Shown: positions 605 through 4,967 of the stretch, in pieces
Numbering within the stretch: the first letter of the stretch is position 1
Layout of the letters: each line of letters begins with the position of its first letter
Notes under the pieces: generated by a model
What the model saw: only the letters and a program-made list of their open reading frames with translations
Told to the model about the DNA's origin: nothing
Database searches by the model: none
Assembly (NCBI GenBank): GCA_029213065.1
Contig: JARGPH010000004.1
Coordinates: 163,257-227,256 of the forward strand
Source: Verrucomicrobiales bacterium
Lineage (GTDB): Bacteria; Verrucomicrobiota; Verrucomicrobiia; Verrucomicrobiales; DEV007
Direction: 5' to 3'
DNA length: 64,000 nt
Program-made: the position numbers and the translations under genes

Positions 605-819
605 AGGAGAGCGTGTTAGGGCAAACAAAAAACGAATCAGAAAAATCGATGTAACGTAATCCGGCAATCGAAAAAGCGGGGGTCAGGCAGCATAGCATTG
701 CAATCCGGTTCGGCTTGTCGTTTCATGAGCATCCCGATGCCCTCTTCCGCACAAAGTAGAGCAACGGGGTACTCCTTCACAAACGGATCACTCTGTATTG
801 TAAGGGATTCCCTTGAGGT

Positions 820-859
820 GCGCATCACCGGTTGGCCCGTTCCGCAATCGGTGATGCGC
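820..859. repeat. Perfect 11-bp inverted repeat ahead of the PcfJ-like gene
   Basis: Arms GCGCATCACCG (820-830) and CGGTGATGCGC (849-859) are perfectly complementary with an 18-base loop. The repeat lies in the gap between two divergent genes and its right arm contains the ATG chosen for the PcfJ-like gene. It could be an operator or an RNA hairpin that hides the start codon; the sequence cannot distinguish these. Confidence 0.6.
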
Positions 860-2032
860 CGTGGAACCCCTTTCAGCAGACCTCAGACGAAGTGGGACCC
901 CTTTGTTCCCGAATTTCGCCTCGTACATCCCTATCGACCGGCAAAGAAACAAATCGCGCGAAAGCGGTTTGAGAAGGATCAACTCAGCTTTGATTTCTTT
1001 GACGAAACCTACGCCCCGGGAAAGATCGAACCGACGACACCGGCGCAACGGAAAAAGAAAGCCCTCGATCAGTTCCGGTTTTCACTCCCGAAACCCGTCG
1101 CCCATGTCGTTGAGCCATTCCGGACGCACCAGTGGCCGCTTCTGAGCTTCCTTGCGCATGACGAAGGGGCACTCGACCTCGCCTCGAACAATCCAGCCCT
1201 CGCCTTTTTCCTCGCACAGCGCCTCCGGTGCAATCGCGACCTGATCCAATCGCTCGGCTGCAGTCAGATGCGCCAGCGTGAACTTCTCGACGTGCTCGGG
1301 CTGCCGTCTTCACCCAATGCGGTGAAGCTGTTCCGTAAAATTGCACCGTCCTCACTCAACGGGGACAACTGGCAATCCATCATCGAATTGCTGAAAACCG
1401 AACTCGGCTCCCCCAAGCCGCGCCTCAATCACCTCCCCTCGATCAATTCCGGTGTCGTCGAAATCCTCCTCGATCAGGGTGCCGCCGATGCCGCGCTACC
1501 CTCGCTTCTCATAGAGGTCGCGAAGGACCGGTCCGAAAACTACCGCGGCCGCATCGTTCACCTCATCACGAGCACCCTCCGGATGCAGGACGAGATGCGG
1601 GTCAGCAAAAAATGCGACCGTTTTCCCTCGGTGGAGCGTCTTCGAAGCGTTCACGACGAAGTTTCAGAGAACTACCGCCGTCGTGCCCATAAGTTGACGG
1701 AAGCCTCGCAGCATGAGAGCGATCATTTCCGGAATCCACCCATTCCCGGGATCGCCGGAAAAATTGAACCGGTCACGAGCGCTGCCCAGCTCGTCGACGA
1801 AGGCGAGGCCCAGGGAAACTGCGTCGCGAGCTACGCCTCGAAAGTGCGGGACGGAAATATCTTCATCTACCGGGTCCTCTTCCCGGAGCGCTCCACACTC
1901 TCCATTGTTCGCAGCTCACCCTTCTCCAGTTGGAGAATCGGGGAGCTCGAAGGGCGCTACAATACTGACGCCAGCCCCGAAACCGAAGATTTCGTGCAAG
2001 CCTGGCTCGATCGTCACGGCCAGATCGTCTGA
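854..2032 (+). CDS. PcfJ-like domain protein
   Basis: The frame is open from 698, but the first 50 or so residues look like non-coding sequence, so I chose the ATG at 854 (392 residues); the true start is uncertain. The C-terminal part carries the PcfJ signature: an EGEAQGNCVASYASKV stretch around residues 316-331, then IYRV, a Pro-Glu-Arg-Ser-Thr-Leu segment and RIGELEGRYN. PcfJ was named from a conjugative plasmid of Enterococcus, but chromosomal homologues are widespread and their function is unknown. No PcfK-like or conjugation gene is nearby, so a transfer role is not supported here. The N-terminal two thirds are not recognised. Confidence 0.75.
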   Translation: MRRGTPFSRPQTKWDPFVPEFRLVHPYRPAKKQIARKRFEKDQLSFDFFDETYAPGKIEPTTPAQRKKKALDQFRFSLPKPVAHVVEPFRTHQWPLLSFLAHDEGALDLASNNPALAFFLAQRLRCNRDLIQSLGCSQMRQRELLDVLGLPSSPNAVKLFRKIAPSSLNGDNWQSIIELLKTELGSPKPRLNHLPSINSGVVEILLDQGAADAALPSLLIEVAKDRSENYRGRIVHLITSTLRMQDEMRVSKKCDRFPSVERLRSVHDEVSENYRRRAHKLTEASQHESDHFRNPPIPGIAGKIEPVTSAAQLVDEGEAQGNCVASYASKVRDGNIFIYRVLFPERSTLSIVRSSPFSSWRIGELEGRYNTDASPETEDFVQAWLDRHGQIV

Positions 2033-2134: not shown

Positions 2135-2503
2135 ATGAACAAACGAACCTTTTTCAAAACCTCCCTTCTCTCCCTTTCGGCGCTGGCACTTGCTGCTGTC
2201 GCCACGGTTTCCGTTCAGGAAAGCCGTGCAGACTCCGGAGCTCTCAAGATCTACAAATTCGAAGCTGACTGGTGTGGCCCCTGCCAGCAAATGAAGCCGA
2301 TCTTCAAGAAAGTTTCCGGTGACTTCAAAGACGTGACCTTTCAAACCGTCGACGTCGATAAGGATCCGAAAACGACCGAGCGCTTCAACGTCTCAATCCT
2401 TCCCACCGTAATCGCCGTGAAAGACGGTGAAGTGGTCGGCACAACGACCGGATTCAAGAATGCGAACCAGCTGAAGTCCTTCATCAAGAAGCACAACCGC
2501 TAA
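2135..2503 (+). CDS. Secreted thioredoxin-family protein
   Basis: A protein of 122 residues with a signal peptide (basic Asn-Lys-Arg start, hydrophobic Ser/Leu/Ala core to about residue 25) followed by a compact thioredoxin fold. The active site WCGPCQQMKP has its cysteines at 47 and 50, and the conserved cis-proline sits in SILPTVI at residue 90. It should act as a disulfide oxidoreductase in the periplasm or on the membrane surface; the direction of electron flow cannot be read from sequence. It converges on tatC, and a hairpin at 2515-2544 follows its stop codon. Confidence 0.9.
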   Translation: MNKRTFFKTSLLSLSALALAAVATVSVQESRADSGALKIYKFEADWCGPCQQMKPIFKKVSGDFKDVTFQTVDVDKDPKTTERFNVSILPTVIAVKDGEVVGTTTGFKNANQLKSFIKKHNR

Positions 2504-2648: not shown

Positions 2649-4514
2649 TCACCCCAGCATGAGGCGGTGAATCATCGCATTGACCTTGTTCTCGGTCAGA
2701 CCGGGAACAATTTCCAGATCGGTAAAGGTCTCAAAAGGACGATGGTCGATGATGGACTCAGCAAGCTTTTCCCCGATGCCGGGAAGCGACATGAGCTCTT
2801 CCTTTGAAGCGTGGTTCATATCCACGACAGGACCTTCCGGCTCGCAGCCTTCGGAGTCATGAAGGTCATCGTCGAAAGTTGATTCTTCGACAAGGTCATC
2901 CGCGTTCGCGTCGTCTTCGCTCTCGTCATCCCCCTCACCCGGCTCCAAATCCTCCGGCTCAGCGTGATCACTTTCCATCCCCGCTGAGGTCTCTTTTTCT
3001 TTATCCTTATCCTTATCCCCCGCATCGTCTGCGGATTCACCATCCTTGTCAGGCCAATCCTGAACCGGCTCATGCGTCTCCTCACCGTGGTGAGGATCGT
3101 CCTCGTGCCCGTCGTGCCAGTAATGGTCGTCATCGTGCCAGCTCTCGTCGTGCTGGGTGTGATGATCATCGCCGGAGTGATAGGGATCCCCGTGGAAGCT
3201 GTCACGCGCCACCGTTTCAGCACTTCCCGAAACGCCTGAACCGGAGTCGTCGCTCTCAGAATGGTCACTCTCATGATCATAGAGATGCGCGTGCTCCCTT
3301 TCGTATTGCTCGATCTCAGCCTTGTGAATCTCCGCTTTCTCCTCTTCAGAAAGGTCATCGGCCGGCTTCTCGTAAAGGCGCTGCAAGCGCGTCTTACGGG
3401 CCTCTTCCTCGGCACGCGCCTTCTTGTCTTTTCCACGCTCGATGATTGAGGCGATGATAATACAAACCTCGTAGAGGAAAATCATCGGCCCACCCAACAG
3501 TCCCAGTGTCATGATATCCGGAGGCGTCAGGATCGCCGCCGCCACGAGAATGATAATCCACGCATAGGTCCGCGTCGCCCGCATTACCCGCGCCGTGAGC
3601 AGATCCAGCTTCACCAGAATCGTAACCACGACCGGCAGCTGGAAACTGATTCCAAAGACAAGCACCAGCCTCGCGATGAAATTGATGTATTGCCCGATTT
3701 GATAGACACTTTTGCCACCTTTTACCGGTATTATGACCAGCTTGTCGCGCGACTCATCGTAGCGCAGCGCGAAGTTCGAGCCTTCCATCGTTGCAAAGCT
3801 TCCCTGAATGTAGGTTCGAATCTCAGCCTTCATTTCAGGACTCAAGGCTGCTTTAGGCGCTTCGGCCTCAGGTTCCGCCCCTTCTTTTACGGGCGGAATC
3901 AACTGACCGTCAGGTCCAAGCAAAGAGACTTCCCCGATGGGCAGCGCCATTGCCTGAGCCGCCGGATCGGTGCTCCCTATTCGTTCGTTCTCGAACACAT
4001 AGAAAAACTTGAGCGCCACCGGTGCCGCGAGATAAAAAGCAAACGCCACCCCCGCCAGAAAGAGAACAAACCCAACCAGCGAACCGGGAATGATGGTTCG
4101 CTTTTCCACCTGGCGAAGCCCCGGAATGATGAACTGAAAAATAAAGTAAACCGTGAAGGGAAATGAAATGATGATCCCGCAGAAAAAGGACAGCTTCAGC
4201 ATCAGAACAATGAACTCCGGCGGGCTCAGCGTGATCAGATCAAACTTCGTCGAAAGCGGCACTCCCTCGGCGATTTCCGCCATCGGAAGCGTCGCCGGAA
4301 TTTGAATCAACTCGAAAATTTTCTCATTGAAGGTGAAGCAGATAACCGTCGAAACGGCAAGGACTGCGCCGACCTTCATCAGCATCGTTCTCAGATCTTC
4401 GAGATGATCCAGAAACGGCTTCTCATGAGCATCAAAACCTTCATCAGCACCGGGCCGGGCACGGGAAGCTGATTCTCTAATTTGAAACAATTTATCGAAA
4501 GCGGTCTTAAGCAT
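2649..4514 (-). CDS. tatC: TatC with enlarged periplasmic loop, His/Asp-rich tail and C-terminal HHH domain
   Basis: Twin-arginine translocase membrane subunit, 621 residues from the ATG at 4514 (the frame is open 27 codons further). TatC hallmarks are present: HLEDLR near residue 37, SPPEF before helix 2, FIIPGLRQVEKR and six hydrophobic segments ending near residue 360. Ordinary TatC proteins are about 250 residues. Two additions stand out. The loop between helices 3 and 4 has roughly 90 extra residues (about 175-270). After the last helix come a charged coiled-coil-like stretch, a tail with about 16 histidines among Asp/Glu/Ser (about 412-481), a strongly acidic stretch, and a ComEA-like helix-hairpin-helix pair (about 562-621) with LMSLPGIGEKLAESIIDHRP and IVPGLTENKV. 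No tatA or tatB is in the window. The DUF1501 and C26 genes here encode plausible Tat substrates. Confidence 0.92.
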   Translation of the reverse strand: MLKTAFDKLFQIRESASRARPGADEGFDAHEKPFLDHLEDLRTMLMKVGAVLAVSTVICFTFNEKIFELIQIPATLPMAEIAEGVPLSTKFDLITLSPPEFIVLMLKLSFFCGIIISFPFTVYFIFQFIIPGLRQVEKRTIIPGSLVGFVLFLAGVAFAFYLAAPVALKFFYVFENERIGSTDPAAQAMALPIGEVSLLGPDGQLIPPVKEGAEPEAEAPKAALSPEMKAEIRTYIQGSFATMEGSNFALRYDESRDKLVIIPVKGGKSVYQIGQYINFIARLVLVFGISFQLPVVVTILVKLDLLTARVMRATRTYAWIIILVAAAILTPPDIMTLGLLGGPMIFLYEVCIIIASIIERGKDKKARAEEEARKTRLQRLYEKPADDLSEEEKAEIHKAEIEQYEREHAHLYDHESDHSESDDSGSGVSGSAETVARDSFHGDPYHSGDDHHTQHDESWHDDDHYWHDGHEDDPHHGEETHEPVQDWPDKDGESADDAGDKDKDKEKETSAGMESDHAEPEDLEPGEGDDESEDDANADDLVEESTFDDDLHDSEGCEPEGPVVDMNHASKEELMSLPGIGEKLAESIIDHRPFETFTDLEIVPGLTENKVNAMIHRLMLG

Positions 4515-4727: not shown

Positions 4728-4967
4728 ATGTTCGGTTACGACGAGGACAAGCGGGGCCCCCAGGACGGGCCGATTCACACAGAGAAAATTCTCGCAGATC
4801 GCAAAATTTTCTTTCTGGACCTGAAAGAGAACGACCGCGGCCAGTTCGTGAAAATCACCGAGGATGTACGTGGACGCCGCGATACAATCATGGTTCCAGC
4901 TGAATTTCTCGACGATTTCATCACCGCTCTCCAGGACATCCGCGACGCCTCGGATCTCGAGGATTAG
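4728..4967 (+). CDS. Pur-alpha-like DNA/RNA-binding protein (DUF3276)
   Basis: A 79-residue protein starting MFGYDEDKRG, with the PUR-type beta-strand pattern: KIFFLDLKENDRGQFVKITE, then RRDTIMVPAEFLDDFITAL. It matches the DUF3276/PUR family of small single-strand nucleic-acid-binding proteins known in Bacteroidetes, spirochaetes and relatives. I used the ATG at 4728 because the product then begins at the conserved region; the frame is open from 4668. It sits 75 bases ahead of yicC and may be co-transcribed with yicC-gmk. The promoter region upstream is AT-rich. Confidence 0.8.
   Translation: MFGYDEDKRGPQDGPIHTEKILADRKIFFLDLKENDRGQFVKITEDVRGRRDTIMVPAEFLDDFITALQDIRDASDLED

Follow-up and report, generated by a model that had tools for sequence, protein, structure and literature searches.

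TatC proteins are known as proteins of about 250 residues and, to our knowledge, are usually described as compact and without partner domains. A glutamate in TM4 is common among them, yet it is not a defining residue. In solved Tat complexes TatB is disordered past its amphipathic helix, and it is because of this disorder that the pre-transport step is not visible in them. The solved TatBC complexes contain three copies of TatC (PMC13323110). Folding quality control in E. coli requires two parts of TatB, its membrane-near helices and the histidine patch that directly follows (PMC9436932). The TatC family, the HHH_3 superfamily and large inserts in periplasmic loops of TatC are already known; such inserts have been reported for the TatC proteins of Nitratifractor and Myxococcus, for which no helix-hairpin-helix (HHH) domain is reported (PMC13323110). 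In V. cholerae ComEA, the HhH1 hairpin binds DNA, and K63, which lies three residues past the second glycine of GIG, is essential (PMC3879209).

The window, by which we mean the whole stretch of 64,000 nucleotides analysed here, contains a Verrucomicrobiales tatC gene with a product of 621 residues. This protein differs from the usual TatC in an insert in the second periplasmic loop, a glutamine in TM4 and a cytoplasmic arm of about 260 residues tipped by an HHH domain (Table 1). No earlier description of a TatC-HHH fusion was found in the open-access literature searched, and a study on TatC diversity (PMC3827258) yielded, for the terms searched, no mention of tails or fusions.

Table 1. Features of the tatC gene, in window coordinates
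Feature	Residues	Coordinates	Strand	Basis
tatC frame, 621 aa: TatC, cytoplasmic arm and C-terminal (HhH)2		2649..4514	minus	ORF, Pfam/NCBIfam
Core part 1: TM1-TM3 and short first periplasmic loop	32-179	3978..4421	minus	Pfam TatC 36-174; AF2 helices 32-61, 98-132, 135-179
Insert in second periplasmic loop, predicted helix-strand-strand	180-271	3702..3977	minus	Loop comparison, AF2
Core part 2: TM4-TM6	272-360	3435..3701	minus	Pfam, alignment, AF2
Juxtamembrane helical region with conserved EQYExEHAHLY	361-418	3261..3434	minus	Genus alignment, AF2
His/Asp-rich disordered segment with conserved HDESWHxDDHYWH	419-490	3045..3260	minus	Alignment, AF2, composition
Acidic disordered tether with conserved ESDHAEPEDL	491-556	2847..3044	minus	Alignment, AF2, composition
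(HhH)2 / HHH_3 domain, starting CxPxGP and ending RLMLG	557-621	2652..2846	minus	Pfam, AF2, Foldseek

The TatC core and its periplasmic insert

The frame described in an earlier note on this DNA proved to begin with an ATG at 4514, a start position that is kept among relatives in the alignment, and to stay open without a break for 621 codons. It encodes the sole TatC of the genome (96% complete). Its identity as TatC is borne out by profiles and fold alike. Pfam TatC (PF00902) matches in two stretches with an E value of 3.6e-52 and 177.6 bits against a cut-off of 25.1 bits, and the NCBIfam tatC equivalog TIGR00945 is passed with 158.3 bits against 132.7. A full-length AlphaFold2 (AF2) model built on 33 related sequences has six transmembrane helices and the TatC fold with a well-predicted core. 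Foldseek searches with this model returned TatC structures first (9e02, 4b4a and 4hts; target TM 0.77-0.88), then the ComEA-related 2duy, and the core aligns with TatC of A. aeolicus as well as with newer cryo-EM structures.

The glutamate after TM2 at the signal-peptide site is present (E137, the equivalent of E. coli E103), and GLRQVEKR of the window TatC aligns to ALYSHEKR of A. aeolicus. The TM4 glutamate, equivalent to E. coli E170, is replaced by Gln292 in FGISFQ (codon 3639-3641, minus strand). According to a table in the diversity study, exchange of E170 for alanine lowers transport in E. coli (PMC3827258). Glutamine occupies this site in the whole genus, in the clade with the second-loop insert and in genus g16, and glutamate in most others; the exchange does not strictly track the HHH domain, as g22 combines HHH with glutamate. 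The one family f5 sequence has glutamine here too, as do two loci, L135 and L149, from a distant family.

The second periplasmic loop measures 98 residues against 11 in insert-free relatives. This amounts to about 87 extra residues, close to the roughly 90 that the earlier note had assigned to a periplasmic loop, and places them in the second one. The insert lies in the first periplasmic loop of most relatives, among them most other families of this order, and in the second loop of the main HHH clade. The window TatC resembles the Nitratifractor and Myxococcus proteins in having a large periplasmic-loop insert, and differs from what is reported of them in its HHH domain.

A helix-hairpin-helix domain on a disordered tether

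Past the core, the TM6 helix extends to residue 382 in the AF2 model and is followed by further helices at 390-407 and 409-416, after which residues 419-557 are disordered. Histidines reach at most 15 per 70 residues (407-476), nearly the 16 or so counted in the earlier note, with 14 in 419-556, and the acidic run described there is real, with 31 Asp or Glu among the 66 residues of 491-556. From the known TatC topology and the six predicted helices we infer that the C-terminus lies on the cytoplasmic side, which supports the earlier placement of the HHH domain in the cytoplasm.

HHH_3 (PF12836) matches residues 563-613 with an E value of 1.3e-12 and 48 bits against a cut-off of 27, and Pfam HHH matches as well (E 2.7e-7). 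The domain is predicted with confidence both within the full-length model (pLDDT of about 90 for 558-618) and when the last 66 residues are modelled alone (88.7). A Foldseek search of the PDB with the HHH domain alone placed ComEA (8dss) first with a TM of 0.87 and 2duy second with an rmsd of 0.7, followed by chains of PsbU. Pfam HHH_3, AF2 and Foldseek thus agree with the ComEA-like HHH pair that had been read from the sequence. The domain shares the (HhH)2 fold and about 40% identity with the DNA-binding domain of ComEA. In contrast to ComEA, it is fused to TatC in the cytoplasm, is net negative, has a short inter-hairpin loop and carries Leu or Met at the position of the essential lysine. 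The ComEA-specific NCBIfam models were not reached (TIGR01259, 30.2 against 152.35; TIGR00426, 27.8 against 53.1), and Pfam PsbU (PF06514) scored 21.8, under its gathering score of 24.5. In the alignment PsbU resembles the TatC domain as an HHH fold in a membrane-complex protein with a degenerate hairpin and a hydrophobic residue at the K63 position, but it is an extrinsic lumenal protein of photosystem II, unlike the cytoplasmic TatC HHH. A search of the genome with HHH_3 found no stand-alone ComEA. The only other HHH_3 protein found there is a 305-residue frame on contig C48 (L088, 805-1692, plus strand), exported-looking and, judged by eye, probably nuclease-like, with its HHH at the C-terminus.

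Distribution and origin of the terminal modules

An order-wide search of 289 genomes recovered the same fusion, with a C-terminal HHH on TatC, in 43 sequences from seven genera (g1, g15, g16, g17, g20, g21, g22) of one uncultured Verrucomicrobiales family, a recurrence well above what chance would give. Named relatives are Verrucomicrobiales genomes assembled from metagenomes, in part under labels such as 'Akkermansiaceae bacterium UBA...', and no cultured organism was seen among those with HHH. Genomes of the same genus have this long frame too, and all 30 TatC proteins read in the genus (29 genomes and the window) end in HHH, with an invariant CxPxGP ahead of the domain and a conserved R-x-M-x-G end. 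In genera g17 and g21 (L092, L093, L094, L099, L101) a further acidic extension trails the domain, and HHH is thus not the last element of every such TatC.

When only the TatC core (231 columns) was used for a maximum-likelihood tree, all HHH tails fell into one group with support of 94/87, and by this comparison of sequences we show here that the TatC-HHH fusion arose once. Two rows inside the clade lack HHH, and both stop at contig edges. The possibility that HHH has been lost or stands separately in relatives was therefore rejected, as the module-less members are truncated by contig ends. The earlier note had named two findings that would speak against a genuine fusion. A separately encoded HHH is excluded, since all clade members whose tatC is complete at the 3' end have the domain in frame; an assembly error or other join of two genes is ruled out by the same frame in many independent metagenome assemblies. 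In close genus pairs dN/dS is 0-0.12 for HHH, 0-0.07 for the core and 0.05-0.41 for the disordered segment. The low value for HHH, near that of the core and below that of the disordered segment, indicates that the domain is kept by purifying selection.

Outside the order, TatC frames are mostly 250-380 residues long among the matches listed, and HHH was absent from a sample of 20 of the longest TatC tails in other families and orders; a rare independent TatC-HHH fusion may exist elsewhere in the phylum. In another family of the same phylum, the TatC proteins at L130 (G363) and L132 (G496) carry a different long C-terminal extension, and at L132 a seventh hydrophobic segment after TM6 is followed by more than 130 further residues.

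Within the order, genera g18, g23, g25, g27, g28 and g29 form a separate group (99/97) in which the tail ends in a helical repeat with a hydrophobic residue every four positions (GPTEELKRxLREELK...; L103-L105, L107, L108, L110, L111, L113, L114, L116, L118, L119, L121, L123, L124). This repeat sits where HHH sits in the window TatC. In genus g2 (L012/L056, genome G034), TatC residues ~481-509 are weakly SAP-like (LMRKRKHELMDIAESLGCGIEGTKKEIVSMILHHY; SAP_new25 E 0.011, below cut-off), possibly a second nucleic-acid-type module on a TatC tail. The remaining genera have acidic tails without a terminal module. Since long acidic tails are general across the order while the terminal modules differ among genera, it seems that the acidic tail came first and that the terminal module is the part that can be exchanged. 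Tails rich in histidine occur in three of the five families compared (f1, f2 and f3; group means of 3-9% His), with or without a terminal module, and so are not specific to HHH-bearing TatC; the tails of family f4 have almost no histidine and those of f6 little.

Proposed protein docking and possible nucleic acid binding

We compared 33 TatC-HHH domains with what is known of DNA binding by ComEA. The equivalent of K63 is Leu or Met in 31 of them and Ile or Asp in the rest. A hydrophobic residue at this position is shared by 2duy and by the nuclease-type HHH proteins found in the class, and as the short-loop HHH subtype generally does without that lysine, its absence is a weak argument on its own. 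The net charge is negative in 33/33 (mean -5.3, range -1 to -14), whereas control HHH_3 domains from Tex-like and other proteins of the same class, a set that leaves out L248 (frame misread), are mostly positive (mean +2.9, n=23). The difference gave p ~2e-9 in a Mann-Whitney test of sequences that are related and hence not independent, and net charge by itself does not exclude nucleic acid binding. The GxG of the second hairpin is lost in 17/33 and that of both hairpins in 7/33, yet the domain is retained, and about 30 acidic residues sit immediately upstream of it. PsbU, a photosystem II protein, is among the nearest folds. As sister genera have a helical repeat in place of HHH, a function common to both modules could do without nucleic acid. 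The negative charge, the lost GxG hairpins and the acidic upstream segment together argue for protein binding, and the sequence features point to a protein-docking device more than to a DNA tether. Chromosome tethering, which the earlier note had put forward, is accordingly disfavoured, and a protein-protein use of HHH, one of the three roles it offered, is the one that this comparison favours.

The genome encodes one TatA-type protein of 81 residues; TatB, or a second, longer TatA/B protein, was not found in it, and the TatA_B_E profile (PF02416) has no match in the arm of the window TatC. With a single TatA, no TatB found and an arm that repeats the TatB order of helices followed by a His-rich part, we consider the best explanation, at a probability of about one half, to be a flexible cytoplasmic arm that presents HHH for protein docking, possibly with a TatB-like role. 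The cytoplasmic C-terminus of TatC would have grown into a long arm made of helices continuing TM6, a His/Asp-rich and acidic tether and an (HhH)2 tip, hanging into the cytoplasm beneath the Tat core complex. The tether would provide reach and a charged, His-rich surface, and HHH would bind a partner at the translocation site, which may be another Tat subunit, the cargo or its chaperone, or HHH itself across TatC subunits. From family knowledge we infer a trimeric TatC core here as well, and with three TatC copies per solved complex, each core complex would have three such arms beneath it.

By analogy, the arm may do part of the job of the E. coli TatB cytoplasmic domain, in which a flexible stretch with a histidine patch likewise comes after membrane-near helices, within the Tat receptor complex (PMC9436932). 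The two are not homologous, however: TatB is a separate, single-span protein without a folded tip, and the likeness is by analogy alone. The description of the TatA/B C-terminal domains as dispensable for transport (PMC13186574) and the E. coli structures, in which cargo contacts the core complex via the signal peptide only (PMC13323110), both count against a docking arm with a possible TatB-like role. Akkermansia-type relatives have one TatA and a short TatC tail, which shows that a Tat system can lack TatB without having such an arm. TatA copy number was considered as a correlate of the TatC tail and rejected, as no pattern with tail type was seen. It is doubtful that the arm has taken over the cytoplasmic task of TatB outright, with the His-rich part sampling cargo folding and the HHH tip or the helical repeat recruiting a cytoplasmic partner. 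Were it so, the Tat receptor would have a docking arm of its own in the cytosol, built in and exchangeable. A conserved, clade-specific and exchangeable folded module on TatC offers a handle on pre-transport events under the Tat core complex. With it one can also ask if an HHH of the ComEA type is able to switch from DNA to protein binding.

The earlier note had also offered metal sensing by the His tail as a possible role. The working part could instead be the His/Asp-rich segment, through metal binding, buffering or pH- or metal-gated control of the translocase, with HHH merely capping or protecting the tail. His-rich tails across f1, f2 and f3 irrespective of the terminal module, and the conservation of HDESWHxDDHYWH and EHAHLY in the genus, speak for this. 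It is nevertheless unlikely, given how little histidine the tails of f4 and f6 contain, and given that the segment is fast-evolving and variable in length while HHH is the better conserved part.

We regard it as quite unlikely that HHH binds DNA or RNA and in this way anchors the Tat site at the nucleoid, in line with the chromosome tether of the earlier note, or at mRNA. ComEA is the nearest relative in fold and sequence, GxG is canonical in hairpin 1 in 26/33 and in both hairpins in 16/33, a lysine equivalent to K62 is kept in 16/33, and one sister-genus genome has the weak SAP-like end. Weighed against these are the uniformly negative charge beside mostly positive controls, the acidic stretch directly upstream, the helical module of the sister clade, the persistence of the domain in the 7 species with both hairpins degenerate and, less tellingly for a short-loop HHH, the hydrophobic residue at the K63 position.

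Self-association of HHH, a particular form of protein docking that would cluster TatC oligomers or make them more stable, appears distinctly improbable as the specific role. By analogy with the solved TatBC complex and its three TatC copies (PMC13323110), three HHH domains would lie together, and a regular helical repeat replaces HHH in sister genera, but the 4-residue period of that repeat is unlike the heptad of a classical coiled coil. That the extension is a nearly neutral decoration without a specific role, or the product of two genes joined in assembly, is highly improbable: tail length and composition do differ strongly between genera, but the dN/dS of HHH is low, the fusion has a single origin with HHH retained in every complete sequence, and the assembly join is already refuted by its recurrence.

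The divergent neighbour of tatC (4731-4967, plus strand) encodes a PurA-like ssDNA/RNA-binding domain (Pfam PurA, E 1.8e-9). A functional link between the two genes was rejected as an explanation because only genera g1 and g20 were seen to have the order PurA, YicC and Gmk beside tatC, and it was not found in the other HHH genera. On the other side, convergent with tatC, a gene for a PcfJ-like protein (698-2032, plus strand; Pfam PcfJ, E 9.5e-10) adjoins one for a thioredoxin with a signal-like N-terminus (2135-2503, plus strand; Pfam Thioredoxin, E 1.3e-20), and both are kept beside tatC in many members of the genus.
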